Shown: positions 10,081 through 33,615 of the stretch, piece by piece | Layout: every line of letters starts with the position of its first letter | Position numbering within the stretch: position 1 is the stretch's first letter | Origin: a candidate division WOR-3 bacterium | GTDB lineage: Bacteria > Hydrothermota > Tepidihabitantia > SM23-42 | DNA length: 59,010 nt | Reading direction: 5' to 3' | NCBI GenBank assembly: GCA_029858255.1 | Contig: JAOUFJ010000015.1 | Coordinates: 1-59,010 of the forward strand | Notes under the pieces: model-generated | Databases searched by the model: none | Told to the model about the DNA's origin: nothing | What the model saw: only the letters and a program-made list of their open reading frames with translations | Position numbers and translations under genes: made by a program

Positions 10081-11586
10081 GTGAAACTGCGGATAAAGAG
10101 AGCACGGATAATCCGGTGGACAATTCAGATACTCTTTCTTGGCTTGTTCATCGCCGCTTTCATTCAAACCCGCTACAGCGTACCAGTAACTTTTCAAAAT
10201 CTCTTCTTTAAGTTCGACCCTTTAATTCTCTTAGTCGTCAGCATCGCATACCGCACGTTCATTACCGCGGCCATTTTGTCTTTGCTGATCGTCGCGGCGA
10301 CAATATTTTTCGGCCGTTTCTTCTGCGGATTTGTATGCCCGCTCGGCACGACGATTGATATTTTCGATGTTTTCGTCAAAAAGCGGAAAAAAACAGAACC
10401 GTTATTGCGGAACGGCAAATATCTCACCTTGATCTTTTTGTTGATTGCCGCAGGACTCGGGATTTCATTCCTCCACTTCCTCGATCCTCTCGCGATCTTC
10501 GAAAGAACATTGACACTGGTTTTCTATCCAGCGGCCATGTACATCTCCAGCATTTTTAATATCGGAGTAAGAACCTTCTACACTGAATCAGCGATCGCTG
10601 TGGCGCTGTTCTCTTTAATTCTCGGTCTGAATTTTATCAACCGGAGATTCTGGTGCCGCAATGCCTGTCCGCTGGGCGGCTTGCTTGCTCTATTATCAAA
10701 GTCCGCGGTCTTCAAGTTTTCGTTTGCCGAAGGCTGCACAGAGTGCGGAATATGCGAAAAGGTCTGCCCGACGGATGCCATTTCCATCGAGAAGATGAAA
10801 GTTGATTCCGGTGAATGCATAGACTGCCTCAGATGCTTGTATGAATGTCCGCAGAATGTTTTGGAGTACAAGATTTCACTAGCACCCTCGTATCTCGACC
10901 TTAGCCGTCGACAATTGATCGGCGCCCTGGGCGCCAGCATTATCGTCGCTCCGCTCGCCAACTCGCTGTTGCATAGAAGACTCTCGGGACGGCTGATCCG
11001 TCCTCCAGGATCGATCCCGGAACCCGATTTCCTCGACACATGCATACACTGCGGCAAGTGCATGAAGGTATGTCCGACGAACGGCCTGCAGCCGTGTATA
11101 CTGGAAGCAGGTGTGAACGGGCTCTGGACACCAAGACTCGCTGCCCGGATCGGCGGATGTGAAAAGAACTGTAATATGTGCGGGCAAATATGCCCCACCT
11201 CGGCGATCAGAAACCTCTCGCCGGAAGAGAAAACCTATGCCAAGATGGGAACGGCGGTCATCGACCGTGCGCGGTGCATTGCCTGGGAGCAGGACCGGGT
11301 TTGCCTGATCTGTGACGAAGCCTGCCCCTATGCTGCCATCAGTTCGCTCAGCGAAACGGTCCGCAATACGACACTGCTCAGGCCTTTCATAGACGAACAG
11401 ATTTGTACGGGATGCGGACTTTGCGAGGCGCGCTGCCCGATCGAAGGACGTGCCGCTATCGAGGTCTACTCCATTGGCGAAGAGCGCATGCGGCGCGGCT
11501 CCTACATCACGGAGGAAAAAATCAGACTGCGCGCGTGTGAGGAGAAGGAAGAAGACTTACCGTCCGGCTTCATCATCGACAATTGA
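10081..11586 (+). CDS. Membrane polyferredoxin, NapH-like plus NapG/MauM-like fusion
   Basis: A 501-residue protein from GTG 10081 (AGAGG upstream). The N-terminal half has several membrane segments and the NapH-type motifs GRFFCGFVCPLGT and FWCRNACPLGG, then two CxxCxxCxxxCP clusters (CTECGICEKVCP, CIDCLRCLYECP). A second twin-arginine-like signal, LSRRQLIGALGASIIVAPLA, lies near residue 273. It is followed by further clusters (CIHCGKCMKVCP, CNMCGQICP, CLICDEACP, CTGCGLCEARCP) like soluble NapG/MauM ferredoxins. This looks like a quinol-linked membrane electron-transfer protein fused to its periplasmic ferredoxin. It follows DUF362 genes and overlaps the next gene by 4 nt. Confidence 0.85.
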   Translation: MKLRIKRARIIRWTIQILFLGLFIAAFIQTRYSVPVTFQNLFFKFDPLILLVVSIAYRTFITAAILSLLIVAATIFFGRFFCGFVCPLGTTIDIFDVFVKKRKKTEPLLRNGKYLTLIFLLIAAGLGISFLHFLDPLAIFERTLTLVFYPAAMYISSIFNIGVRTFYTESAIAVALFSLILGLNFINRRFWCRNACPLGGLLALLSKSAVFKFSFAEGCTECGICEKVCPTDAISIEKMKVDSGECIDCLRCLYECPQNVLEYKISLAPSYLDLSRRQLIGALGASIIVAPLANSLLHRRLSGRLIRPPGSIPEPDFLDTCIHCGKCMKVCPTNGLQPCILEAGVNGLWTPRLAARIGGCEKNCNMCGQICPTSAIRNLSPEEKTYAKMGTAVIDRARCIAWEQDRVCLICDEACPYAAISSLSETVRNTTLLRPFIDEQICTGCGLCEARCPIEGRAAIEVYSIGEERMRRGSYITEEKIRLRACEEKEEDLPSGFIIDN

Positions 11587-14500
11587 TACCCGTCCTCTTA
11601 TTTCTCCTCGGTTTTTCACAAAAGCAGATCGCAAACAATCCCATAATACTTGACGGCATTGAAAGCCGATACGCATCGGAATACATCCTTACGACGACTC
11701 CGCTTGGTATCTACAATTTTGACCGGAGTTCAAGGACATGGAAGAGCATCACGACAGCCCATGGTCTGCCTGACAACGAAGTCCATATTGTTGGTCTCGA
11801 TCAGGGGATTCTCTGGGTCGCAACAGGAAAAGGACTGGCTTCGGCTGACATCCGGCTGAATGACTGGATCACATATGAAATGCCCGGCACCGTGAAAGGC
11901 CTATCCTTCGACGAGAGTTACGCCTGGGTCACGGGTGATTTCGGATTGAAAAGATTCGATAAGTATGCGGAAATCTGGGAGGGCATCGATGACACACCGG
12001 CCGAGGATATACTCTTTGACAAGAATTTTCTGTGGATCGCCACAGCGCACGCCATTCTCAGGTACAATCGTGAATTCGAGAGGATCGAAGAAATGTATGC
12101 GGCACCCAAACATGAATATTACTACATCATCGACACCAAATCGAGAATCTGGTTCCTGGCCGAGGAAAATTTCGTAGCATATGAGAAAAGCACGGAAGCA
12201 TGGACAGAGTATGCTTCAATGAGAGTGGACGATTACGCAACTCTTGATGATTCTCTTTTCGTGGTCAGCGATAAACGGGTTCTTCTATATAACCCGACCA
12301 CCAACAGCTGGGGAACACTGATCGAAGTAGAAGGACTTGGCAATATAAACGGCATATCCATCAGCCCGAAGACATCGAATAAAATTTCATTCGCCACAGA
12401 CCAGGGATTGCTGCTGTATGACCTGGTCGAGAAAACGCAGGTCGTGCATAACCGCACCAACGGCATGTTCAATGATACGATAGCCGATGTTTACGAAGCA
12501 CCCGGTTACCTCTTCGCGATCGGTCCACGCAGCATACAATATTATGATAAGAGTACCGGTATCTGGCAGATCGAAGAGTTGATCCCGGTTGAGGGCATCA
12601 GTGCAAAAATTCTGAGCTATGACGAAGCCGGGTTGCATCTAAACGCGATCGATGACATTGATGTACGGCTGCAGGGCAGGGCATACTACTCGGTTTTTGG
12701 AACCATCAGGGACAGCCTGGAATGGAATGACTACTCGACGATAAATCTGCGCCTGATCGGCCAGCATGCGAGCAACCGCATGATATCTATTTATTATGAT
12801 GATACAGACAAGGAAGATACACTGTATGGTTTCGGTTACCGTGGCCTCGAAACCGATTTTCTCTACCGCGCAAACGGAGGCTTCATCGAATCCGAGTACT
12901 ACGAATTCAATCTGGTACCCGAATTCTCAACATTCGGAGCAAATGCAAGATTACGCCACAGTGCGCACAGCCTGATGGTACAGGGAGGACAGCTGAGATC
13001 CAGTCATCAAAATGATTTTTTCTACGGACGCTCGTTCGAACGCGATACCACCATACAGGATATTCATTATTCCAGGAACACGTTCTATAGAATACCCCAG
13101 GGAAATACCGTAACACGCAACGGGACGGACACGATATTCGTGGATGACCGCCTGCAGGAAACGAACTCGATCGCCACCAGAGCAGGATACACTATCGCGG
13201 GCATCACCGGTGATTTTGACCCTCTAATTAATGGCTTCGATTACTTCATTGATTACGAGAACGGTATCCTGCAGCTCCTCCGTCCGGTAGGTGATGATTT
13301 TGTGGTCGTCCTCAAGGCTGACGGACAGGAGATCATCATACAATCCGATCTGATACGTGACAACGTGCTCTTGAATGTATACGCGCTCGGGCCGGACATA
13401 GTACCGGGTTCTCTGGAACTCAGTATATTCGATACCCTGGGTGCAGCGCATCCTCTTAGCGAATTCGGGATCGATAACAACGGCGACGGCCTGGTCGACG
13501 CGGAGTTCATCAGTTACCGGCTCGGCTATCTGATGTTCCCGCAGGAACGGCCGTTCCCGGACGAGGTCTACGACCAGCAGCTGAACGTGTATACAATTGA
13601 TTACAGGTTCCTGACCCAGTCGGTCTTCTATTCACTAAGCAGACAGCCGGTAATGATAGGTAGCGAAAAGGTTTTTGTGGACGGCGAGCAGGTGACAAGG
13701 AATTATCATTACAGCATTGACTACACTTCAGGTACAGTCCTTTTCCTTAGCGACGACGTGGTTTCTGATTTCAGCGAGGTCGAGATACAATATGTGGCCG
13801 TGGAAAGAACACGTTCTGATCCGTTCTACTCGGTGCAGCCGAACATCAAGATCGGCGATAATATCAACATCGCGCCGGGTTACAGTGCGATCGATGAAGA
13901 GGAAATATTTCACCTTTCCGGCAAGTACCAGAACGGTTCGGCAAAAAATTCGATCGCTGTCGTGCCCCAGGTTGCAGTCAATGAAGATAAGGAATATGCC
14001 CAGGACTATCTGCTGGTCGCCAACTACCAGGCGCTGACGCTGAATGCAAACTATCGCGGTTTCTCGGAAGGATTCGAATCGTTCGGATTGAGCGAAAAGC
14101 GCTACGGGAATATGGAACACAGCGGCGCGGTTTCGCTCGGTATAGAACCGGTCAACTATGTACGTTTCAACACCAGCGTGAAAAAAGAATGGCTCACAGA
14201 TTCACTCGACAATTCAAACGAAACCGAATTCATTTCCGGAAGGATAGAGTATTTGAATCCGAGTCTGCCGAACGGATTTTTACTCGCTGCCCGGAATAAA
14301 CTGCCGGATTATGAAAAGGTCCGTCTTCAATGCAACGCGAATTACAACTTCCAGATGGCCGAGAACAAGGTTCGTCTGACTTCGTCGATCTATAATGATC
14401 TCCTCCATTTCAGTGACGACAGCCAGAAAGAAATACTCGGATACACCGTTAACACCAACATCGCACTGAGTTTTCCGGTAAGGGTGGACATCTATGTGCA

Positions 14501-15422
14501 CGGCGTAGACCGTTACGCAGAAGAATATCGGGAAAAGGATGAAAATGAGATCCGTCTCGCCCTGAATATCGACGTGATACCCGGGCTGTACTACACTGGC
14601 AATTATCAACAAAAGAAGGAAACCTTCTTCCTGCCGGCGTCCAAGGACATGTCGGTGCGGAGTTATATGTATAACGACCTCAACATCGCGCCGGGCAGCT
14701 GGTATTCACCTCTGAGCATTATCAATTTCACACTGGGTACCGGCCAGAATTTTGAAGAGTATCTGGGCAATGTTCCGCTCAGCCGCAAGCTGCCGCTGTT
14801 CCTGGTCGGACCGGTCGAGAATGACATTGCCACGCTTTCTGATCTGAGTAATGCCTACGCAAAGATATATTTCAAGCCGCTATCCAATCTCAATCTGCAA
14901 CTCAAGCGAACTTTAAACCGCAGCGGTACCGCGCGCTACGACACGCCCGTCCTTCGCCGTGGATATGCCGACGAAATAAGGGCAGAATATGAACAGGCGC
15001 GAATCGGATTTGTAACGGTTGTCTTTAACCGTGCAGAAAACCGGTTCTATCCTGTGCAGATCACCACGAACACCTACCTCGAATGGATAAGATCCTGGAC
15101 CGCGCAATTGAGGACAAAATTCAGTGCCAATCACAGAATAGATAAGGATGATTATCAAACCGCTCAAGCCGAAGATTCAGAATCCACCGTAAGAATGGAA
15201 ACGCTCTGGAGGTTCGGCCGCAGGTCATATGTCAACTTGAGCATCGGCGCAAGGAGACAATATCGATTCGCGAGCGGACTCAGCAATTCAATTCTACCCG
15301 GGTGCAGTGTATACCTTAACATGATCGAATTCCTGTATATGCAGTTAGATTATGAAGCGAACGTGCTTATCCACGGGCAAACAACCCATTTACTGTCGGC
15401 AAAGATAATGGGATCGTTCTAA
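11583..15422 (+). CDS. Very large exported propeller plus beta-barrel protein
   Basis: A 1279-residue protein translated from TTG 11583, whose TG lies inside the TGA stop of the preceding gene, so translation is coupled. The start gives a signal peptide (IPVLLFLLGFSQKQ). Residues from about 30 to 350 contain two-component-regulator-type propeller repeats (ILWVATGKGL, FLWIATAHAILRYN). The middle has an Asp/Asn-rich calcium-type loop (DNNGDGLVD near residue 632). The C-terminal half is strand-rich, mentions repeated two-residue periodicity and ends in GSF, as in outer-membrane barrels. Overall it looks like an outer-membrane protein with a large exported sensor or binding part. No family of known function is recognised. 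Confidence 0.65.
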   Translation: MIPVLLFLLGFSQKQIANNPIILDGIESRYASEYILTTTPLGIYNFDRSSRTWKSITTAHGLPDNEVHIVGLDQGILWVATGKGLASADIRLNDWITYEMPGTVKGLSFDESYAWVTGDFGLKRFDKYAEIWEGIDDTPAEDILFDKNFLWIATAHAILRYNREFERIEEMYAAPKHEYYYIIDTKSRIWFLAEENFVAYEKSTEAWTEYASMRVDDYATLDDSLFVVSDKRVLLYNPTTNSWGTLIEVEGLGNINGISISPKTSNKISFATDQGLLLYDLVEKTQVVHNRTNGMFNDTIADVYEAPGYLFAIGPRSIQYYDKSTGIWQIEELIPVEGISAKILSYDEAGLHLNAIDDIDVRLQGRAYYSVFGTIRDSLEWNDYSTINLRLIGQHASNRMISIYYDDTDKEDTLYGFGYRGLETDFLYRANGGFIESEYYEFNLVPEFSTFGANARLRHSAHSLMVQGGQLRSSHQNDFFYGRSFERDTTIQDIHYSRNTFYRIPQGNTVTRNGTDTIFVDDRLQETNSIATRAGYTIAGITGDFDPLINGFDYFIDYENGILQLLRPVGDDFVVVLKADGQEIIIQSDLIRDNVLLNVYALGPDIVPGSLELSIFDTLGAAHPLSEFGIDNNGDGLVDAEFISYRLGYLMFPQERPFPDEVYDQQLNVYTIDYRFLTQSVFYSLSRQPVMIGSEKVFVDGEQVTRNYHYSIDYTSGTVLFLSDDVVSDFSEVEIQYVAVERTRSDPFYSVQPNIKIGDNINIAPGYSAIDEEEIFHLSGKYQNGSAKNSIAVVPQVAVNEDKEYAQDYLLVANYQALTLNANYRGFSEGFESFGLSEKRYGNMEHSGAVSLGIEPVNYVRFNTSVKKEWLTDSLDNSNETEFISGRIEYLNPSLPNGFLLAARNKLPDYEKVRLQCNANYNFQMAENKVRLTSSIYNDLLHFSDDSQKEILGYTVNTNIALSFPVRVDIYVHGVDRYAEEYREKDENEIRLALNIDVIPGLYYTGNYQQKKETFFLPASKDMSVRSYMYNDLNIAPGSWYSPLSIINFTLGTGQNFEEYLGNVPLSRKLPLFLVGPVENDIATLSDLSNAYAKIYFKPLSNLNLQLKRTLNRSGTARYDTPVLRRGYADEIRAEYEQARIGFVTVVFNRAENRFYPVQITTNTYLEWIRSWTAQLRTKFSANHRIDKDDYQTAQAEDSESTVRMETLWRFGRRSYVNLSIGARRQYRFASGLSNSILPGCSVYLNMIEFLYMQLDYEANVLIHGQTTHLLSAKIMGSF

Positions 15423-23295: not shown

Positions 23296-24462
23296 TTAAA
23301 TCTCTCCTGCCTTCTTCAACCCGTACTTGGCAAATATCGGGCCGACCAGTTCATATATCACCGTAGTCGCGGTGATCGTCGTGAAGATGACATCGCCGTA
23401 CTCCGGATACAACGCCTTGGCGCTCAATGCAACGCCGAGCGCCACTCCGGCCTGCGGTACCAGCCCCCAGGCGAGGTACTTGCTGATGTTCTCTCCGGCC
23501 TTCGATATGTAAGACCCGAGTCTCACGCCAATGAATTTGCCAAAGACCCTGAATATAATATATAGCACTCCCATGATGCCGACCTTCGGCAAAAGATGAA
23601 TCTCAAGATTTGCACCAACCAGAACAAAAAATCCCAGAAAGAAGACCATATCGATGTCTCTCAATTTTTCAAAGAACAATTCATTGTTTCTGACGATGTT
23701 AGCAACGACCAGGCCAAAAGCGATATTGGTTAAAAGCGGGGAAAGTCTCAGGGTCATGGATAAACCCACTGCCAACAGTATGAAACCAATGACAATGACA
23801 AGCACTTCCTCCACCGTCATTATGAAACGGGATAGTAGATTGAGAGCGAAACCCAGTACTGCGCCGAGTATCAAGGCCGCGCATATCTCAAAAATGGCCT
23901 CGAGGAGTACAACGGAGTTGAAAACTCCAAGCCTCAAGGCATTTGCCGTCGTTATCGCCAGGGCTGAGAATATCAGACACCAGGCATCATCAATTGCCAC
24001 CACTTTCAAAAGCATTTCGGTAACCGGCCCGCTGGCCCGATACTCCCGGATCACCATCACGGTTGCGGCGGGTGCAGTCGCTGCGGCAGCCGCTCCCAAA
24101 ACGAAAGCCGGATGTATGGGAAGGTTATTCAAAGAATGATAGGCGATCATTACCAGTGTAACAAGGATCCAGGCAAACGCAGCTTCGAGTACAGAGATCC
24201 ATATCACCGGTTTACCGGCTGCTCTGATACCTTCTATCCTGAAATTCGCACCGAGGGTGAAAGCGATAATACCCAGCACAAAATTCGAAACGAAATCGGA
24301 TGCATCCATGATCTTGACTGGAATGAGATTCAACAAACGGGGACCGATAAGGATCCCGACCAGAAGATATGCGGTAACGGCAGGGAAACTAATGCGGCGC
24401 AGAAGCTTTGCACCCAAATACGCACATATGATAATGAGGGCAATGCCCAGTATACTATTCAG
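23296..24462 (-). CDS. Cation:proton antiporter (CPA2-like), second tandem copy, CTG start
   Basis: A monovalent cation/proton antiporter of the Na_H_Exchanger family with about twelve membrane helices, including TVMVIREYRASG and VAIDDAWCLIFSALAI, which holds the conserved Asp pair. The usual start codons give TTG 24417, which would delete the first helix. Translation can be extended to CTG 24462 (LNSILGIALIIICAYLGAKLL). This aligns residue for residue with the paralogue's start at 25633 (MNSLLSAGLILLLGFVGARLL), and both starts overlap the upstream stop by 8 nt. I therefore take CTG as the start. The ion used is unknown. Confidence 0.8.
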   Translation of the reverse strand: MNSILGIALIIICAYLGAKLLRRISFPAVTAYLLVGILIGPRLLNLIPVKIMDASDFVSNFVLGIIAFTLGANFRIEGIRAAGKPVIWISVLEAAFAWILVTLVMIAYHSLNNLPIHPAFVLGAAAAATAPAATVMVIREYRASGPVTEMLLKVVAIDDAWCLIFSALAITTANALRLGVFNSVVLLEAIFEICAALILGAVLGFALNLLSRFIMTVEEVLVIVIGFILLAVGLSMTLRLSPLLTNIAFGLVVANIVRNNELFFEKLRDIDMVFFLGFFVLVGANLEIHLLPKVGIMGVLYIIFRVFGKFIGVRLGSYISKAGENISKYLAWGLVPQAGVALGVALSAKALYPEYGDVIFTTITATTVIYELVGPIFAKYGLKKAGEI

Positions 24463-25633
24463 ATGGCAAAATCTCCCCGGCTTTTATAAGGCTGTATTTC
24501 GTCAACAAAGGGCCGATCAGTTCGAATATCACCGAGGTTGCAGCTATGATGGTGAAAATATAACCTCCAAAATCCGGAAAGGTTACCTTGGCGACAAGAC
24601 CGATACCCAATGCTACACCAGCCTGTGGTGCCAGGCTGAGGCCGAGCCAGTGCTCAACACTCTTTGGCGCGTTGCTTATCCTCGCGCCGAGTTTGGCACC
24701 ATAGACCTTTCCTATCGTACGGAATACTATATAAAGAATGCCGGCAAGTCCCATTTTATATAGTATTGCAAAATCAAGATGGGCGCCGGACATGATGAAG
24801 AATGCAAGATAAAGAGGAGTGTCGACCGAGCGCAGGACTTCGAAGAACCTGTAATTCTCACGGGCGATATTGACCATGACCAAGCCCATCATCATTGCCG
24901 ACAATAGCACCGACACCTCCAGGGCGATGGACAAACCGACATCCAGGAACAATAGGCCGAGCGTATAGACCAGCAGTTCTTCTCTCGTCCTTACATACTT
25001 GCTCAATCTGGAAGAAAGATATCCGAGCACACCACCAAGCACCAGAGCGCCGAATATTTCACCCAAACCGGCAAACACGATCGACAGCTGAAACACGTCG
25101 GCGCGCATTGCATTACCCACCGCAATTGCCATGGCGGCAAAAATAAGACACCAGGCATCGTCGATAGCAACCACTTTGAGCAGCAACTCAGTGAGTATAC
25201 CGCTTGCCCGGTACTCGCGGATAACCAACACCGTGGCAGCGGGTGCAGTGGCCGACGCGGCTGCACCCAGGACAATAGCAGGGTATATGGGCATCTTGAT
25301 GCTGATGAAGTACACAATCAGGGCAGTCGAGACGAGTAACCAGGCTGCCAGGGCGGCGCTCAGTGAAATCCACATGACCTGTCTCATACCCTGGCGCAAT
25401 TTGTCAATACGGAAATTCTCACCCAGACTGAAGGCGATCAGCCCCAGAACAAGATTCGAAAAGAACTCTGAGGCGGCAAAGATCTCTACCGTGACGAGGT
25501 TAAGCAACTGGGGGCCGATCAGGATGCCTACTATCAGAAAGGCGGTTACGCTTGGCAGGCGCACCAATTTCAGGAGGCGCGCGCCGACAAATCCCAACAG
25601 TAGAATCAGACCGGCGCTGAGTAGGCTATTCAC
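24455..25633 (-). CDS. Cation:proton antiporter (CPA2-like), first tandem copy
   Basis: A 392-residue membrane protein of the same family as the next gene, with similar motifs (PAVLGAAASATAPAATV-like helix, VIREYRASGILTE, VAIDDAWCLIFAAMAI). It starts at GTG 25633, overlapping the CBS-protein stop by 8 nt, so the three genes form one operon. The C-terminal residues PSE with the TAG stop and the following start resemble the preceding NSE-TAG junction, suggesting tandem duplication of the whole unit. A regulatory CBS protein just upstream hints at nucleotide-sensitive transport (inference). Confidence 0.85.
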   Translation of the reverse strand: MNSLLSAGLILLLGFVGARLLKLVRLPSVTAFLIVGILIGPQLLNLVTVEIFAASEFFSNLVLGLIAFSLGENFRIDKLRQGMRQVMWISLSAALAAWLLVSTALIVYFISIKMPIYPAIVLGAAASATAPAATVLVIREYRASGILTELLLKVVAIDDAWCLIFAAMAIAVGNAMRADVFQLSIVFAGLGEIFGALVLGGVLGYLSSRLSKYVRTREELLVYTLGLLFLDVGLSIALEVSVLLSAMMMGLVMVNIARENYRFFEVLRSVDTPLYLAFFIMSGAHLDFAILYKMGLAGILYIVFRTIGKVYGAKLGARISNAPKSVEHWLGLSLAPQAGVALGIGLVAKVTFPDFGGYIFTIIAATSVIFELIGPLLTKYSLIKAGEILPSE

Positions 25634-26120
25634 TGTTCAAGATTTCGTGTTCTTTTAATATGAAGACAAGAATATCGAGCAAAGACAATACGCCCACCAA
25701 CTTCTTGTCTGCGACTACGGGTAGCGTCTCGATGTTATGAAGTCTCATGAGCCGTCGCGCCTCGCGTACTGTTCTATCCTCAGTGATAGACACATAGTTC
25801 GTGTTGATGATGTCGGCAACCAGAATTAGCGTACCCATTTCGGGAGAGAGTTCGAGATTCAAATCTTCATCATCGACTTTCTCGACAAAAGGCATTCTTT
25901 CCACTATTTCGCTGACCGATCCTGAAAAAGGACGGAATATGCTCAGAATTCCGCGGTAGTTCACTATTCCTAATAGCGTCCTGTCCTCATCGACAACCGG
26001 GAGCATGTAGTGATTAGTCTTTCGCATGAATTCAATCAATTGCTTCAGATTTGTCGAAGGGCTAACCGTAGGTGCATCACGCCTCATTACTGATGCGACC
26101 GATAGTTTTTCAATGTCCAT
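25626..26120 (-). CDS. CBS-domain pair protein
   Basis: A 164-residue protein made of two CBS domains (VASVMRRDAPTVSPSTNL ... LPVVDEDRTLLGIV, and TNYVSITEDRTVREARRLMR ... LPVVADKKLVGVLSLLDIL). CBS pairs bind adenine nucleotides or related ligands and regulate enzymes and transporters. The ATG at 26120 lies 6 nt past the -10 box, so the mRNA should be leaderless. It leads a three-gene operon with the two antiporters, making a role in their control likely. Ligand unknown. Confidence 0.85.
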   Translation of the reverse strand: MDIEKLSVASVMRRDAPTVSPSTNLKQLIEFMRKTNHYMLPVVDEDRTLLGIVNYRGILSIFRPFSGSVSEIVERMPFVEKVDDEDLNLELSPEMGTLILVADIINTNYVSITEDRTVREARRLMRLHNIETLPVVADKKLVGVLSLLDILVFILKEHEILNSE

Positions 26121-26182: not shown

Positions 26183-27577
26183 TCAGGCCGCGACAACCTT
26201 GTTGCGCCCACTCATTTTGCCTTCGTACATCGCCTTGTCCGCCTTGCCGATGAGCTCGTCGCGCGTCTTGGCATCTTCGGGGTAAGCGGCAACACCAAGC
26301 GTCACCGTGATACTGAATTTCTTGTTGCCGAATGCGTAGAACGGTTCGCGGCCGATCACCACCCTGATCCTCTCGGCAATAATCAATGCGGTTCTCTTAT
26401 CCGTGTTTGGCAAGAGAACGATATACTCGTCACCACCGTAGCGCACGATCACGTCATTCTTGCGGATAACCCTGGTCATTCTTTCACCGACAATTTTCAG
26501 GGTCTCGCTGCCAACAAGATGACCGAAATTGTCATCGACCAGCTTGAAAAAGTCGATATCCAAAAATATCAAGGAAATCCTTCCGCTTGCGTCTTTCCTC
26601 TCGATCAGAAAATTATCCAGGAATTGATTGCAGTACCGGGTGTTATACAATTGAGTGAGATCGTCGACCAGGCTCGCCTGTTCCATTTTTCTGTACAGGT
26701 TCGCCTTCTCGAGCGCTATGGTCAAATGCGCAACAACATTTTCGAATATTTCGAAATCGTCCTGCGTAAAAGATTCGCCGCCTATTTTGTTGACGACCTC
26801 CACGACCCCGATGATCCGATCACGGCTCCTCATTGGCACACAAAGCACCGACTTTGTGGTGAACTTTGTTTGCTGGTCGACCCCTGAGTAGAACCGGGGG
26901 TCTTTCGACACATCGGGAACCATCAACGACGCGCCGTACCGGGAGACCCAGCCGGCAACACCCTGCCCAATTTTCAATCTCATTCCCAGAAGTTTCTTCC
27001 CGGCTTTTCCCGAGGCCGCCTCAAAAACCAATTCTTTTGTTTTCTCATTGATCATAAGAACCGACCAACCTTCCGCGTTTATCAGATCCGCGGCTTTTGC
27101 CATGATAGTATTAAGAATCTCTTTGGGCTTGAGCGATGAATTGATCGCCTGAACCACCTCATTGAGTGTCTGCAATACCTGAACCTTTCGCTGCAGAGAC
27201 ATCACGGTCTTGCGGTTGTATATAATCTCATTTCTCCGTTGAATGGCTTTTTCCAAAACTTTCTGCAGGAAATCGATCCTATAGGGGCGAAGGAGCAATC
27301 CCGCCACGCCGGCAAAAATCGCTTTCTCCAAATTCATTACCGCACTTCGGTCGGCGACAAGTATGACAGGCACTTCCTCGTGCTGTTTCCTTAACTGATC
27401 GAGTATTGTCAATGCTGATACATCAAGTATACATATGTCACACTTCTTCTTCCGTACAATCTTACGCAACTCGCCTATGTTCGATACTGTAGTATTGCTC
27501 AATCCGAGTTGGTGAAGATGTCTGGAGAGAGTCGTAAGTCTAAGGCGGTCCGGATCGAAGACTAATGCTTCCATCAA
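26183..27577 (-). CDS. Diguanylate cyclase with receiver-like and GAF domains
   Basis: A 464-residue protein. Residues about 1-115 look like a response-regulator receiver (CDICILDVSALT, VPVILVADRSA, LLLRPYRIDFL). Residues about 145-290 form a GAF domain (TIMAKAADLINAEGWSVLMI, GQGVAGWVSRYGASLMVPDV). Residues about 300-460 form a GGDEF domain with the active motif GGDEY and an upstream RKND (RxxD) inhibitory site five residues before it, so it should make c-di-GMP under feedback. It overlaps the upstream cyclase-like gene by 4 nt and closes the ruvX-led operon. Confidence 0.9.
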   Translation of the reverse strand: MMEALVFDPDRLRLTTLSRHLHQLGLSNTTVSNIGELRKIVRKKKCDICILDVSALTILDQLRKQHEEVPVILVADRSAVMNLEKAIFAGVAGLLLRPYRIDFLQKVLEKAIQRRNEIIYNRKTVMSLQRKVQVLQTLNEVVQAINSSLKPKEILNTIMAKAADLINAEGWSVLMINEKTKELVFEAASGKAGKKLLGMRLKIGQGVAGWVSRYGASLMVPDVSKDPRFYSGVDQQTKFTTKSVLCVPMRSRDRIIGVVEVVNKIGGESFTQDDFEIFENVVAHLTIALEKANLYRKMEQASLVDDLTQLYNTRYCNQFLDNFLIERKDASGRISLIFLDIDFFKLVDDNFGHLVGSETLKIVGERMTRVIRKNDVIVRYGGDEYIVLLPNTDKRTALIIAERIRVVIGREPFYAFGNKKFSITVTLGVAAYPEDAKTRDELIGKADKAMYEGKMSGRNKVVAA

Positions 27578-29841
27578 AGAGTCAAGACTTCATATAACAT
27601 CTTAATTCTCTTGTTATCTGTATCATAGATGTTGTTGCGATCATCAATAATAAAATCGTCGATACGCGCATCCACTATCGCCTTATTCTTGTTCAACTCG
27701 CCAAGCAAATGCGCACCCTTCGGCACAACCGACACTTTGAGATCAGAGAAATTGTAGCCATGTGTCGTATCACGGAACTCCCGAAGGAGTTTACAGTATT
27801 TCTCATAATCATTCTCTTCGATCGGATACTCGAAGTTATCTGCATTAAGGACAAGGTTAACTAAAGTGGGAAGATCACATATGATAACAGACCGTCCCGG
27901 TTGTCTTTCTCTCGAATACAGATTGGCATCGGCCAGAATCGGCCCAACCAGATCGGGGTCCCCGTACGAATTCGGCGCGAAGATAACATCCTGATCAGGT
28001 ACTCCCGAAGCGATGCCGACGCCGATCCGGAAGAGGCTCTTGAACTCAGGCGGCAGCAGAGCATACGTAATACCATCCAGTTCAAGAGTTCGCTCGGCGA
28101 CATCCGCAAACCATTCCCGGTAATGCACGAAGTTCGCCCGGATAAATTCCTCTGCCCTCTGTACGATATCGCGAGCGCACAGGACCGCACGCTTTGCCGC
28201 ATCCGCGGCAGGAATTATATCACATTCACCGCCTGAACATATTGAATAACGGAGCTTGGTTCCCTTCCCGGTCACCGATTCGGTGTACAGATAATTGTAG
28301 AGAGAGCCTGAATTCTCGGAAAACCAGACCAGCCCACCGTCACCCGTGTCCTTGAGCAGAAAGCCATCATACCTCTTAACAACCTGTGCCATCTCTTTGG
28401 CGAATTTGTGTTTTATTCGCTGTTCCTTAACAGCATCGTTCAATTTGATGCCCATGTAGGAGGAACCTCTTATGTCGTATACCAATATCGTGACGCATTT
28501 TCGGTATTTACCCGCGTATTCTATAATCTCCCGCGGCTTTTCAGCAACCTTTCCTCCGAGCTCCAGAACATTCTTCCCGGTCAGGAAAACGGTCTTCAGG
28601 TTTGCCAGGTCACTGGTCACCCTCGGCGCCTCATTCTCATCTGGTGGTAAGCAGCTGACGAGATTCAAGAAACATTGTCCGACATGATCAGGTATGATCG
28701 TTTTCTTCATGAACGAATTGTAAGCATCGAGGAGCATATCTATTTCCAATTCAACCGAGATAATACCGCGCTTCTCGAATTTCTTGAGCATGGAAACGCT
28801 CCGACTCTTCTTGCGGTAGATTTCCTCCAACTCCTGTGTCACGGATTTTGTGAAGTTTCTATGTTCATCCTTTGTCAGCGGTCCAAATCTATGCATAAAG
28901 ATATACTCGCTGAAGATTTCGTATACCGGTTTCGTGACATCCAACAATCGTGTTTCCGCATAATGCTTGAGATTCTCTTCCTGCTGGAGGTTATCGAGTA
29001 TTTCTTTCTTCTTCCGCTGATAATCCTTGAGGTGATATATGTTACCTAGAAACAAACGGTCCAACCTCGAGAAGAGATTGGAGACTTTCTGAGTTATCAC
29101 GTTGGTGTCGGCATCCTGGGACACATCCTTATCGACGATCTCGTGCAACCCTTGATTTGTTTCAAGGAAGAGTCCTTCGAGTTGTTCTTTTATCCGGAAT
29201 GAATACAGGTCAATTGTCTTGAGTTCCTCCTCTGATTTGCTTCTGACATCACGGAGAATGACCGAGAGCTTCCTGATCAACTTGGCAAGGGATGTTGCCG
29301 ACAGGTAATTAAGATAGATTGCCGGTATTTTCTCGGCAGCATCTTTCATGCCGGTAATCCCAAGACGCTCCACGTCAGAGAGTAGATCGGGCAGAAGAGT
29401 TTCGACACGCGCCCCGATGATGCTCTTGTGCACGGCCAAGAATATATCGTGCGCAAGTGAAACCTCGCGCATATCCTTGGTGTATTCGTTTATCTGCTTC
29501 CTATTGGTTGCCTGCTCGATTATTGCCACCACTTCCTTCGGACATTTTTCGATCAACGCCTCGGGGATGGGCATACCTCTCTTCTTATGTCCTATGAACA
29601 GTGGCAGTTCAAAACCTTCATATTCGTTGATCTTGTGCCCCAGTTCGAGTATAAAATTGCGGCGATTCTGGAAGACTTTGATCGGTGCCTTTGACATTCC
29701 CAGACATGCTAAACCTTGTTCGATCGCCGAAAGACTCTCAGTGTATCTTTGCTCACCGACAAATCTCTGCCCGACCATGGCGAAGTAGTTGCTCTGCTCT
29801 TCCATGTAATCCTGAAGGTTGCTGACCTTATGCGTGTTCAT
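27574..29841 (-). CDS. Large nucleotidyl-cyclase-like protein, copy 2
   Basis: A 755-residue protein. The first 450 residues are mostly helical with no recognised domain. A class III cyclase-like domain starts near residue 448: VYDIRGSS carries the first metal Asp (456) and LKDTGDGGLVWF carries the second (501) with the purine-reading Lys position filled. The 45-residue separation fits class III cyclases. Further on, FRIGVGIASG matches the family, but the usual D-x-x-G-x-x-V-N-x-A-x-R block reads DLVGPILADANLYSR. It is paralogous to the next upstream gene and overlaps both neighbours by 4 nt. Activity and product (cAMP or cGMP) are unproven. Confidence 0.75.
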   Translation of the reverse strand: MNTHKVSNLQDYMEEQSNYFAMVGQRFVGEQRYTESLSAIEQGLACLGMSKAPIKVFQNRRNFILELGHKINEYEGFELPLFIGHKKRGMPIPEALIEKCPKEVVAIIEQATNRKQINEYTKDMREVSLAHDIFLAVHKSIIGARVETLLPDLLSDVERLGITGMKDAAEKIPAIYLNYLSATSLAKLIRKLSVILRDVRSKSEEELKTIDLYSFRIKEQLEGLFLETNQGLHEIVDKDVSQDADTNVITQKVSNLFSRLDRLFLGNIYHLKDYQRKKKEILDNLQQEENLKHYAETRLLDVTKPVYEIFSEYIFMHRFGPLTKDEHRNFTKSVTQELEEIYRKKSRSVSMLKKFEKRGIISVELEIDMLLDAYNSFMKKTIIPDHVGQCFLNLVSCLPPDENEAPRVTSDLANLKTVFLTGKNVLELGGKVAEKPREIIEYAGKYRKCVTILVYDIRGSSYMGIKLNDAVKEQRIKHKFAKEMAQVVKRYDGFLLKDTGDGGLVWFSENSGSLYNYLYTESVTGKGTKLRYSICSGGECDIIPAADAAKRAVLCARDIVQRAEEFIRANFVHYREWFADVAERTLELDGITYALLPPEFKSLFRIGVGIASGVPDQDVIFAPNSYGDPDLVGPILADANLYSRERQPGRSVIICDLPTLVNLVLNADNFEYPIEENDYEKYCKLLREFRDTTHGYNFSDLKVSVVPKGAHLLGELNKNKAIVDARIDDFIIDDRNNIYDTDNKRIKMLYEVLTL

Positions 29842-32255
29842 CTGGAGATCTCCGTATGAATCTCGAAGAGCAATTTAGACCGCTCCACTTTTTCAAGCTG
29901 AATATCAGTACTTTCGTCGATTACGATATCGCTGTCGTCGAGTACAATTTTCAGGTTATCTGTATCCGCCATCTCCCGTCCGAATTTGGCCGCGAATATT
30001 TTGTGCAGATCAAAGATAAAACCCTTACGCGTTGCCCGTTGCCTGATCCAGTATTCCAATCCCTGTTGTATATTCAACTGTACCGGATCGATACGCAAAC
30101 CCGCTTCGCTCAAGAATGAAAAACGCTCAACATTCAGCAGAATGTTGTATACTGTTGCATCGTCACAGATAACAGTCGACTTGCCTTTTGCTTTGACTGC
30201 GGAATACAGATTCGCCTCCCGGACAAGCATCCCGGTCAAATCGTACTCACCAAAAGCATTCTTTTCTAGATATAGCTCACGCGGATAATGACCCGAGGCG
30301 ATACCGATCCCTACCTGAAAGATTGCCTGATATGATGGTGGCAACGTAGCGTAAGTCGCTCCCTCAAAATCAATTTCGCGTTCTTCCGCTTCACGGAACC
30401 AATCATGATATCGATGTAGGTTCCTCTGGACAAAAAGCTTGGCTTCCTGGACCATTTCAATAGCACAGCGGACTGCGGGCAGCATGCTGCCGGACTCAGG
30501 TTTCAAGGTTTTCTCATCCTTTATGTCATAGTGGTTTTTCGCAAAGAAGATCACACCACCATCGCCGGTATCCTTTACGGGAATGCCTCCGTACTTTTCG
30601 GCGACGTAAAGCATCGATTCCTGGAAGAGATTCCTGATCGCGCTTTCCTTCTCGGCATTCTTTAATTTTGCACCCATAAATGTCGAGCCTCTTATGTCAT
30701 ATACTAATACAGATACGAGGTTTTTATAGCGCTCAACGTTGACATCAGAAACAGGCCCCTCGGACGGCACAATGTTCACATCCTTTTCAATCATCGAAAC
30801 CCGACCGGACAGCGCTTCCTCGCCGAGGTAACGGATTCCCTCGGCGGTCATCATGTCAGAGAGCTTGGGGTAATAATCAACCAACTCTTCCAACAGGATA
30901 CACTTCACAAGCGGCGTGATGATTTCATCAACGATTTTCGCGAACTTACCGATTATTAGCTGGCTATCATATTTCTCCTTGAGCAGTGCAGGGGTTCTGT
31001 ACTGATTCATCAATTGCTGAGCGGCCTCGTCACTTCTCAGATCGTTCAACGCGTCCCTGATTATGAGCTGAAGCTGATCCTCTCCAATTTTCTCATTTCT
31101 GTGCAGCACCTGCATAATATACGGATCCCATTCGTTCTTCACGACCAGCCCGCTAATATCAGCGGGCTTGTAGCGCATGATCTCCTTGAGATTGTTCTCC
31201 CTGTCGAGGCACTCCTGATACTCCCATTTCAATATCTTCAGATCGTAGGCATTACCGATCACCGAACGGTGCAACCTCTTCACCATGTTCTCAATGGCTT
31301 CTTCAGTGGAGAAATCCTCGGCGAGATTGATTAAACTATCGCTCATGATGTTCGTCGTTTCGCTTATCTTTCTCCGGATATTCTGCATTTTTTCGCTGAT
31401 ACTCCGTTTCTTTTCCGTGATATCCGCCATCAACCTGCGACCGCGCATCTGTAGCGCATCGATGATGAGCGTGAGCGCGCTATCGTCGGGAAAGAAAAAC
31501 CGGGATTTGAATATTTCACCTATCGATTTCTTATTGAAGGACGGTAGTTTGCCCAATGCATCCACGATATTTTTCGTTTCATCTGTGTAATAGTAGCGGA
31601 CCAGTCCCTTCATTATGGCACTGAATACCGGTTCGGGCAAACCCTTTTTCATGAAGCTCGGGTTCAGGACTTTCATCATATCAAAGTAACTGGTCTTCGG
31701 CACGAAAGGTACGTGTTCATATGAATCGATTATTATGTTGTCGACGACCACGGTTCGCTTGGTAAGTGAGTTTCTTATATAGTTGAACAGTTGATTGACG
31801 ACAGCCCCGAACCTTTCCGACACAGCAATTTTGGTTTCGGCGGATTCGGCGAGCAGCTTGCGCGTAAGGATATCACGAAGCAACTTCCGATTGGCGATCT
31901 CGAATACTACAACATTAGAACTAACGCCCTGAACAAAATCCTGATAAATGTTGAAAATATGTTTGCTATATCTTTCGAAAAAATGTTCCCACTGATCTAT
32001 CTGTGATTCATCCTCGAGAAACTTTATGTAATTAGAGACAAAATCACCCTGGAGGGTAAAAATCCTTCTTCCCAGATACACAAGTTCTTTGCCATTATTA
32101 CTCTCTAGTTTCTCGATGAAAGGATCGCGTCTCGTGATCCGCTTGAGCACAGAGAAGTATCGCGTGAAATTTGCGTTATCGCGATACGTAGCATGCAGTT
32201 TTTCGTAGTATGGAGTTTCGTGAATTACTCTATCCTCTATTCCTTTATCGATCAT
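29838..32255 (-). CDS. Large nucleotidyl-cyclase-like protein, copy 1
   Basis: An 805-residue paralogue of the following gene. The N-terminal 510 residues are predominantly helical, probably with coiled-coil parts (KKRSISEKMQNIRRKISETT). The cyclase-like domain shows VYDIRGSTF with metal Asp520 and VKDTGDGGVIFF with Asp565, again 45 residues apart, then FQVGIGIASG. The downstream block reads DLTGMLVREANLYSAVKAKG, lacking an Arg four residues after the Asn, whereas copy 2 has one. This may make copy 1 a regulatory partner in a heterodimer (inference). It follows mltG with a 4-nt overlap. No membrane segment is apparent. Confidence 0.75.
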   Translation of the reverse strand: MIDKGIEDRVIHETPYYEKLHATYRDNANFTRYFSVLKRITRRDPFIEKLESNNGKELVYLGRRIFTLQGDFVSNYIKFLEDESQIDQWEHFFERYSKHIFNIYQDFVQGVSSNVVVFEIANRKLLRDILTRKLLAESAETKIAVSERFGAVVNQLFNYIRNSLTKRTVVVDNIIIDSYEHVPFVPKTSYFDMMKVLNPSFMKKGLPEPVFSAIMKGLVRYYYTDETKNIVDALGKLPSFNKKSIGEIFKSRFFFPDDSALTLIIDALQMRGRRLMADITEKKRSISEKMQNIRRKISETTNIMSDSLINLAEDFSTEEAIENMVKRLHRSVIGNAYDLKILKWEYQECLDRENNLKEIMRYKPADISGLVVKNEWDPYIMQVLHRNEKIGEDQLQLIIRDALNDLRSDEAAQQLMNQYRTPALLKEKYDSQLIIGKFAKIVDEIITPLVKCILLEELVDYYPKLSDMMTAEGIRYLGEEALSGRVSMIEKDVNIVPSEGPVSDVNVERYKNLVSVLVYDIRGSTFMGAKLKNAEKESAIRNLFQESMLYVAEKYGGIPVKDTGDGGVIFFAKNHYDIKDEKTLKPESGSMLPAVRCAIEMVQEAKLFVQRNLHRYHDWFREAEEREIDFEGATYATLPPSYQAIFQVGIGIASGHYPRELYLEKNAFGEYDLTGMLVREANLYSAVKAKGKSTVICDDATVYNILLNVERFSFLSEAGLRIDPVQLNIQQGLEYWIRQRATRKGFIFDLHKIFAAKFGREMADTDNLKIVLDDSDIVIDESTDIQLEKVERSKLLFEIHTEISR

Positions 32256-33208
32256 TGGTACCGGTCCTTTGCGAGGGCGTGTTCCCGATAAGTCCGGGAA
32301 AAATGATGCCGTCCATCACCCCTTGCCACGAAGTAAAGGTAATCAACATCGGCTGGCGTTATTGCTGCCTTTATTGAACTCTCACCCGGCGAGCATATCG
32401 GCCCTGGAGGCAGTCCAAGATGCAGATATGTATTGTATGGTGAGCTAATTTTGAGGTCTTGGTCGGTTAGTTTCTGTTTGGAAACGGGATTTTCGGCCGT
32501 TTTCAAAATGTAAAAGATCGTCGCGCACGACTCCAGCGGCCTGTTTGAATTCAGACGGTTCAAAAACACACGGGCGATGATCGGCCTCTCCTCTTCATAT
32601 TTTGCTTCCCTTTCCACAATCGACGCCAGAATAACGGCCCGGTGCAAAGAATCAGCACTTTTGAGCCCGTATTTCGGAACCCGGCGCAGAAAGTTGCGAA
32701 CCATCATCGTGATCACCGCTTCCTCGCTCTGCATGACGCTGAGAGAATAGGTATCAGGGAAAAGATAACCCTCAAGCGACCTCATGTTCAATCCGAGCGC
32801 ATCGATCAGGCTGTCATCGCTGCACAATTGGATGAACCGTGTATAATCAACCAATCCGTGATCAGCGAGGATCTGTCCGGTTTCGCGTATTGTCGAGCCC
32901 TCTGGTATCGTGACGATTATCTCAGATCTTCCACCACTCCTGAGCTGGTTGATCAAATATAGAGGATTTTTGTACTTGTACAGTTCGTAGGTGCCCGCTT
33001 TTAGCTGTCTCTCCTGTCCCGAAACTTTCAACCAGAACAAGAATTCGTCTACGTTCCGGACAATATTTTGATCTGCGAGGAAGACCGCGATCTCCCGCGC
33101 GCTCGCATTGTCCGGGATCGTAACTTCGGTCCGTCCCAGGGTCAAGGGCTGCCACCAAGCCACGAGAATCAACAATACGAGTGTAAATATCAGCAATCTC
33201 TTGTTCAT
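32252..33208 (-). CDS. mltG: Endolytic peptidoglycan transglycosylase
   Basis: A 318-residue membrane-anchored YceG-like protein. An N-terminal membrane helix (RLLIFTLVLLILVAWW) precedes a LysM-like region (VTIPEGSTIRETGQIL) and the catalytic domain, where AVILASIVEREAKY contains the catalytic Glu (199) and NRPLESCATIFYIL and YNTYLHLGLPPGPICSPG are family signatures. MltG cuts nascent glycan strands and sets their length. It overlaps ruvX and the cyclase-like gene by 4 nt each. The ruvX-mltG pairing is common in bacteria; the cyclase genes behind it are not. Confidence 0.93.
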   Translation of the reverse strand: MNKRLLIFTLVLLILVAWWQPLTLGRTEVTIPDNASAREIAVFLADQNIVRNVDEFLFWLKVSGQERQLKAGTYELYKYKNPLYLINQLRSGGRSEIIVTIPEGSTIRETGQILADHGLVDYTRFIQLCSDDSLIDALGLNMRSLEGYLFPDTYSLSVMQSEEAVITMMVRNFLRRVPKYGLKSADSLHRAVILASIVEREAKYEEERPIIARVFLNRLNSNRPLESCATIFYILKTAENPVSKQKLTDQDLKISSPYNTYLHLGLPPGPICSPGESSIKAAITPADVDYLYFVARGDGRHHFSRTYREHALAKDRYQ

Positions 33209-33615
33209 GACCGCCTTGTGAGCAGGTATTCTTCAAGCATGAGCGAAGCAGCAACGCGGTCGATGTCCCCTTTCTTCATGCTCAATCCGGCCTCTTTGAA
33301 TTTGTTAACCGCATATTTGCTCAGATAGCGTTCGTCCCATTTTTCAACGTCGATATCGAGCTGGCGCTTTAGCCTCTTTATGAAACGTTCGATCTGACGG
33401 CTGATCTCTGTAGGCTCGCCACGCATCGAGACTGGATTTCCCACAATTATCAGACCTACGTTGTTTTCATCTACGATACACTTAAGTCGTTTTATTAAAT
33501 CAGCAACCGACTTCGGTTTTATCGTCAACAGCGGTTGGGGTATTGTGCACAACGGATCGGTAATGGCCACGCCGACCCTTTTCTGACCGTAATCGATTGC
33601 CATAATTCTCGTCAT
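33205..33615 (-). CDS. ruvX: RuvX/YqgF-family Holliday-junction resolvase or pre-16S rRNA nuclease
   Basis: A 136-residue RNase H-fold protein. The first strand reads IMAIDYGQKRVGVAITDP with the catalytic Asp, the second LIIVGNPVSMRGEPTE with the following EISRQIERF, and the last acidic site is in KGDIDRVAASLMLEEYL. YqgF proteins process the 5' end of 16S rRNA; a Holliday-junction role is also proposed. It is the first gene of the operon with mltG, two cyclase-like genes and a GGDEF gene. The start lies 10 nt after the -10 box, so the leader is at most about 4 nt. Confidence 0.92.
   Translation of the reverse strand: MTRIMAIDYGQKRVGVAITDPLCTIPQPLLTIKPKSVADLIKRLKCIVDENNVGLIIVGNPVSMRGEPTEISRQIERFIKRLKRQLDIDVEKWDERYLSKYAVNKFKEAGLSMKKGDIDRVAASLMLEEYLLTRRS

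Follow-up and report, generated by a model that had tools for sequence, protein, structure and literature searches.

We see about even chances that a degenerate, purine-nucleotide-binding class III cyclase regulates a Hypr-type cGAMP synthase, both being encoded in a chain of five genes on the reverse strand of the window (i.e., the whole stretch of 59,010 nucleotides of WOR-3 DNA analysed here). The genes of the chain are:

33205..33615, reverse strand: ruvX (YqgF), ordinary (Pfam PF03652, E 4.4e-34)
32252..33208, reverse strand: mltG (YceG/MltG), ordinary, with one N-terminal membrane helix (Pfam PF02618, E 1.2e-81)
29838..32255, reverse strand: B805, helical N-terminal half and predicted class III cyclase-like domain, clade 2 (AF2, Foldseek, tree)
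27574..29841, reverse strand: A755, helical N-terminal half and predicted class III cyclase-like domain, clade 1, adjoining the GGDEF gene (AF2, Foldseek)
26183..27577, reverse strand: Hypr-type REC-GAF-GGDEF protein, predicted to make 3',3'-cGAMP (or a mixed dinucleotide) (Pfam, GacA match, signature, tree)

The Pfam domains RuvX, YceG/MltG and Response_reg-GAF-GGDEF were found in the respective proteins, and MltG is the sole protein of the chain with a membrane helix (hydropathy maximum of 2.12 at residue 6). The 4-nt overlaps between adjacent open reading frames (ORFs) described in the earlier note are real, with the qualification that the GGDEF gene overlaps by 4 nt only when translation begins at TTG; starting at the ATG codon that follows (TGATG) shortens the overlap to 1 nt and is a better fit to the 463-aa orthologues. 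The entire chain recurs in three families (f1, f2 and f3) belonging to the host's own class and is therefore not a chance arrangement; the pairing with mltG extends beyond one genome, and the chain is kept in the host lineage (WOR-3/Stahlbacteria).

Structure prediction and profile comparison both indicate that A755 and B805 end in a divergent class III cyclase fold, as had been proposed. Searches of the full-length proteins against Pfam, NCBIfam and PDB sequences gave no significant cyclase match and returned coiled-coil noise alone; more specifically, Pfam reported nothing on A755 and an unrelated sub-threshold ATP-synt_D alone on B805 (E 0.012), and the cyclase-like domains of the family score below detection by Pfam Guanylate_cyc. 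AF2 models were obtained for A755 (pLDDT 85.5, pTM 0.72) and B805 (pLDDT 82.9). In Foldseek, the C-terminus of A755 matched CyaC (E 1.2e-5) and Ma1120 (TM up to 0.81), and that of B805 matched Cya2, CyaB and Ma1120 (E 4e-6 to 3e-5). A profile of the cyclase-like domain recovered CyaB at E 3.8e-5, and its alignment by hhalign with canonical cyclases of the same phylum reached 97.2% (E 3.3e-11). The N-terminal halves of both proteins are helical in the models, with two long helices in A755 (197-240 and 246-297). Sequence searches found no known domain in them and there was no fold match among the PDB matches listed, in agreement with their earlier description as lacking a recognised domain.

The residues of the two cyclase-like domains were placed as follows:

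27835..28521, reverse strand: A755 cyclase-like domain, with metal D456 and D501, K497, purine D630, A637 (Asn position) and L641 (catalytic-Arg position)
30057..30743, reverse strand: B805 cyclase-like domain, with metal D520 and D565, K561, D672, R679 (Asn position) and L683 (catalytic-Arg position)

Both metal Asp pairs, each with a Lys four residues before the second Asp (K497 and K561), lie where the earlier note had put them, and the metal Asps, this Lys and the purine Asp are invariant in 54 of 54 homologues. The catalytic (transition-state) Arg position holds Arg in none of the 54 and is hydrophobic in nearly all family members; canonical cyclases of the same phylum have Arg there in 19 of 19 cases. 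The transition-state Asn is retained by 13/54 homologues; A755 has Ala at that position and B805 has Arg. This register, on which hhalign and three MAFFT methods agree, places Ala637/Arg679 at the catalytic Asn position and Leu641/Leu683 at that of the catalytic Arg. The DLxG(x)5ANLYS block, previously taken as the replacement of the usual catalytic motif, is present in both proteins but had been aligned about one helical turn off. Reading ANLYS as VNLAS with a three-residue insertion is ruled out by the same four alignments and by members retaining the canonical G-x-x-V-N-x-A. ANLYS itself is variable (Asn640 in 27/54 homologues), and the Arg following it is present in only 6/54. An active/inactive pair had been suggested from the presence of this Arg in one copy; since the catalytic positions fall at 637/679 and 641/683, Arg644 of A755 does not correspond to the transition-state Arg, both copies depart from the canonical pattern, and the argument fails.

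The class III cyclases CyaC, CyaB, Ma1120 and Rv1900c have in common with A755 and B805, in register, the fold, the two metal Asps, the Lys and the purine Asp, whereas the A755/B805 family lacks the transition-state Arg and mostly the Asn, and has additional residues around a conserved aromatic segment (F566, Y574, W577, F578). DUF2652 proteins are also divergent class III-like proteins without the Asn, but they keep the catalytic Arg and consist of a single small domain, differing in both respects from the A755/B805 family (PMC4886424); DUF2652 is absent among the Pfam families listed for A1 members. Judged from sequence, A755, B805 and their homologues would make up one class III cyclase family in which the catalytic residues were lost and the nucleotide site was kept.

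The GGDEF protein of the chain has as its best PDB match the Hypr enzyme GacA (6d9m, E 4.2e-36). Its diagnostic positions are:

26423..26437, reverse strand: GGDEY motif
26507..26509, reverse strand: codon of Ser357, the specificity position (D344 in PleD, S347 in GacA)
26534..26536, reverse strand: codon of Asp348, replacing the conserved base-contacting Asn (N339 in GacA)
26639..26641, reverse strand: codon of Thr313, the cross-dimer position (Arg in canonical diguanylate cyclases, Tyr in GacA)

According to the Hypr rules, Ser at the specificity position, exclusive use of GGDE[F/Y] and a non-Arg cross-dimer residue favour cGAMP (PMC6456294, PMC9140294). All 22 GGDEF partners of the cyclase-like family lack the guanine-selecting Asp (12 Ser, 9 Gly, 1 Ala), none has the cross-dimer Arg, and all have GGDE[F/Y], not GGEEF. 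Among unlinked GGDEFs of ten genomes, the specificity Asp is present in 56 of 59 scorable domains. In a tree in which GacA is the sole outside Hypr sequence, the partners form one clade with it (support 97/96), to the exclusion of PleD and of the canonical GGDEFs encoded in their own genomes. Like GacA (GSU1658/Gmet_1914) and Bd0367, the host GGDEF protein combines the specificity Ser, GGDE[F/Y] and a non-Arg cross-dimer residue with an N-terminal receiver domain (PMC6456294, PMC9140294). Unlike in these enzymes, Asn339 of GacA corresponds to Asp in the host's class (and in UBP2/Edwardsbacteria; the remaining partners have Asn), Gly and Ala variants occur in other lineages, and the partners, which belong to candidate phyla, are genetically paired with a cyclase-like protein. 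Two of these differences count against the Hypr reading: 10 of the 22 have Gly or Ala instead of Ser/Thr at the specificity position, and the Asn-to-Asp change is no known Hypr feature.

The c-di-GMP label first given to the GGDEF protein is accordingly doubtful and, going by its signature, the protein probably differs from an ordinary diguanylate cyclase. If it were one, Ser, Gly and Ala would be neutral and the module would feed c-di-GMP, which we regard as possible but rather unlikely. The protein does carry an I-site RxxD, and the host genome encodes other GGDEFs and two MshEN domains. MshEN is a fold known to bind c-di-GMP. Furthermore, a D-to-S change in GSU3350, a canonical GGDEF-motif enzyme, left a pure diguanylate cyclase (PMC6456294). 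However, three separate Hypr features come together in all 22 partners, the partners cluster with GacA, canonical GGDEFs of the same genomes retain the Asp, and no PilZ domain turned up in the host genome.

The pairing of the cyclase-like and GGDEF genes reaches across several phyla. Among the 45 A-type genes with enough downstream sequence to score, 38 have this GGDEF gene directly downstream on the same strand, in WOR-3, Hydrothermus, UBP2 and Edwardsbacteria records whose upstream operons vary. Two observations count against the pair: seven A-type genes have no adjoining GGDEF gene (family f11, L097 and L106), and clade-2 copies are mostly alone, so the cyclase-like protein cannot act only via a GGDEF partner.

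Alternatively, A755 and B805 might form an active heterodimeric nucleotidyl cyclase with one working composite site, in which A755 would supply the metals and Arg679 of B805 would stand in for the canonical Arg, located a helical turn further on. In mammalian adenylyl cyclase, one of two composite sites works. The two genes are adjacent in f1-f3, Arg at the Asn position occurs in clade-2 members and not in A755's clade, the metal and purine residues are invariant, and the helix with 637/641 is predicted in the A755 model. We nevertheless judge an active heterodimer unlikely: copies of either clade also occur without a neighbour from the other, a hydrophobic residue fills the true Arg position in almost every member, and the publications consulted describe no active cyclase with such an Arg swap.

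A wall-linked relay, in which MltG would work at the septum together with the two cyclases and a diguanylate cyclase, has the tight gene overlaps of f1-f3 and one TA06 record with mltG preceding a clade-2 copy (L102) in its favour, but is highly improbable and is not indicated, since mltG adjoins the cyclase-like gene only in one class and that record, most other lineages have the latter gene in unrelated operons (pyr genes including pyrBC, tldD, creatininase, pilT-like or ribosomal genes), and only MltG has a membrane helix. Across lineages there is no support for mltG as a functional partner; it looks like a lineage-specific passenger, and ruvX and mltG are housekeeping genes that happen to share the operon in the host lineage. 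Plasmid spread was also considered and rejected, with no match in PLSDB.

In the regulatory pair that we favour, the conserved unit would be a large soluble protein with a C-terminal degenerate cyclase domain (A755) and a Hypr-type GGDEF enzyme, with B805 a tandem paralogue of A755 in the host lineage. From the retained and lost residues, the gene pairing and the GacA grouping we infer nucleotide binding, inactivity, contact and product: most likely, the cyclase-like domains bind Mg-ATP or some other purine nucleotide, do not cyclise it efficiently, and serve as a nucleotide-sensing subunit. The long N-terminal helical region would relay the bound state to the REC/GAF part of the GGDEF partner, whose product would then be 3',3'-cGAMP, perhaps among other cyclic dinucleotides. 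More tentatively, and with rather low confidence, this may be an undescribed second-messenger system, in which a retired class III cyclase serves as dedicated purine-nucleotide sensor (or partner half-site) of a Hypr-clade GGDEF whose Gly/Ala and Asn-to-Asp variants make cyclic dinucleotides with base preferences unseen in GGDEF proteins.

According to PMC9140294, Hypr GGDEFs make up about 0.17% of GGDEF domains; they had been considered to stem from ancestral deltaproteobacteria (PMC6456294). Here, GGDEFs that group with GacA are distributed across candidate phyla, with a single recurrent partner protein that may be an input for Hypr enzymes. GacA does not depend on its receiver Asp. The natural Asp/Ser/Gly/Ala series at the specificity position also offers material for studying base choice. 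No cGAMP or c-di-GMP-I type riboswitch was found in the host genome, which counts against the pair. Across the phylum, c-di-GMP-I type riboswitches were found in 6 of 147 genomes, all six with the cyclase-like family; four of these genomes represent one family, and the four riboswitches scanned are of the c-di-GMP-I-GGC type.

The class III cyclase-like domains that the earlier note had proposed for A755 and B805, the 755- and 805-residue proteins of the window, were borne out by structure matches and by profile-profile comparison. AF2 models of both proteins (pLDDT 85.5 for A755 and 82.9 for B805) had class III cyclases as their top 50 PDB matches. A domain-only profile search retrieved CyaB (E 3.8e-5) and Ma1120 (E 2.5e-3), and comparison of the domain profile with that of 19 canonical cyclases of the phylum gave 97.2% (E 3.3e-11). 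The metal Asp pair previously claimed for A755 (D456/D501) was likewise recovered in one register by hhalign and three MAFFT methods, which also agree on K497 and D630 as purine residues, 637 as the Asn position and 641 as the Arg position; these side-chain positions were read from aligned sequences together with secondary-structure prediction. Asn and Arg occupy the latter two positions in 19/19 canonical cyclases of the phylum. Across the A755/B805 family the Arg position is never Arg, and the Asn position holds Arg (21), Asn (13), Ala (9), Ser (6), Asp (4) or Gly (1). The register is fixed because several distant lineages retain a readable G-x-x-[VI]-N-x-A at the Asn-position stretch.

The domain tree resolves two clades. 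Clade 1 holds A755 and most GGDEF-linked copies, with Asn, Ala, Ser, Asp or Gly at the Asn position; clade 2, with Arg there, holds B805 and copies mostly standing alone, such as one between rplQ and valS. A755 and B805 share 28% identity across ~526 residues and are the only family members in the window genome, a 2.72 Mb draft that includes the window contig and whose closest named relatives are WOR-3/Stahlbacteria MAGs. The window reads as follows.

Minus strand: ruvX, mltG, B805, A755 and the REC-GAF-GGDEF gene (26183-27577), five genes with overlapping ends
23296-26120: a pair of Na/H exchanger genes plus one gene with a CBS domain after the GGDEF gene, kept beside it in much of f1 (f numbers, families of genomes), at times inverted
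11583-15422: ORF of 1279 aa without a Pfam match at E 1e-5

For the GGDEF gene the probable start is ATG at 27574 (TGATG) rather than a TTG; this choice agrees better with its orthologues of 463 aa. The mltG link of the earlier note held in part: the order ruvX-mltG-B-A-GGDEF is maintained in f1-f3, and elsewhere the place upstream is taken by pyrR-pyrB-pyrC-like genes, by tldD, by a creatininase gene, by T2SSE/PilT-like genes or by the rpsK-rpsD-rpoA-rplQ operon. The recurrent feature is the pairing of a clade-1 gene with a GGDEF gene, not mltG. A GGDEF gene immediately follows 38/45 clade-1 genes with enough downstream sequence (including L100 and L116, whose GGDEF ORFs were called too long at the start). 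About ten families plus UBP2/Edwardsbacteria share the pairing, which is missing in f11, L097 and L106; locus counts are not phylogenetically independent.

In the PDB, the GGDEF partner matched best to GacA from G. metallireducens, a Hypr (cGAMP-making) GGDEF (6d9m, E 4.2e-36), and PleD ranked below it. All 22 partners have GGDE[F/Y]; the specificity position (PleD D344) is Ser in 12, Gly in 9 and Ala in 1, and the cross-dimer position, Arg in canonical DGCs, is Thr, Ser, Ile or Ala. In published work, Ser at the specificity position with GGDE[F/Y] goes with promiscuous use of ATP and GTP and with synthesis of cGAMP, and a cross-dimer residue other than Arg goes with cGAMP as main product (PMC6456294; PMC9140294). 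Partners and GacA, the only outside Hypr sequence included in the tree, formed one group (97/96), separate from PleD and from the same genomes' canonical GGDEFs. By Pfam, 22/22 partners have GGDEF and 20/22 have GAF; 11/22 match a receiver domain and the other 11 do not. Residues 1-110 of the window protein form a degenerate-looking receiver domain, in which Asp-Pro replaces the acidic pair and Arg the conserved Lys.

Scorable GGDEF domains unlinked to the family, from ten genomes (one without a GGDEF match; G106 and G112 counted for part of their matches), had Asp in 56, Asn in one and Ser in two at the specificity position. The two Ser domains look like orthologues, in f11 and f12. A second GGDEF family in f11 and f12, unlinked to a cyclase-like gene (L178, G061:C13:131158-131631; L203, G067:C29:832-1308), has Ser at the specificity and Gln at the cross-dimer position; L178 was placed outside the GacA group.

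The cyclase-like family is present in 53/147 genomes of the phylum. Two peptide patterns run against 84,980 species genomes, a search that detects only members bearing these motifs, gave 63 loci, spread over records of WOR-3/Stahlbacteria, TA06, Hydrothermus, UBP2 and Edwardsbacteria and a few under doubtful labels such as 'Acetofilamentum'; a search of plasmids for the family gave no match. The A755 gene is truncated to 392-396 aa in two genomes of the genus (L095, L135) and divided into two ORFs at L094; in genome G002 its pieces lie far apart on the chromosome, possibly by rearrangement or assembly error.

Beyond the observed fold, residue pattern, pairing, signature and grouping, we infer that the cyclase-like domain would bind a purine nucleotide and metal, may cyclise the nucleotide poorly, and could act through the helical region to control the GGDEF partner, whose predicted product is cGAMP. 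The window genome has four matches to canonical class III cyclases, three cNMP-binding domains, eight GGDEFs and two MshEN domains, and a search there for PilZ found none; on this inventory, no receptor is assigned to the product. Four c-di-GMP-I-GGC riboswitches (RF03167; L167, L168, L169, L170) were observed, and the cyclase-like family is present in 6/6 phylum genomes with a c-di-GMP-I type match. The L167 riboswitch lies upstream of a gene for a PAS/HisKA-type protein and that of L168 upstream of a C25 peptidase gene.
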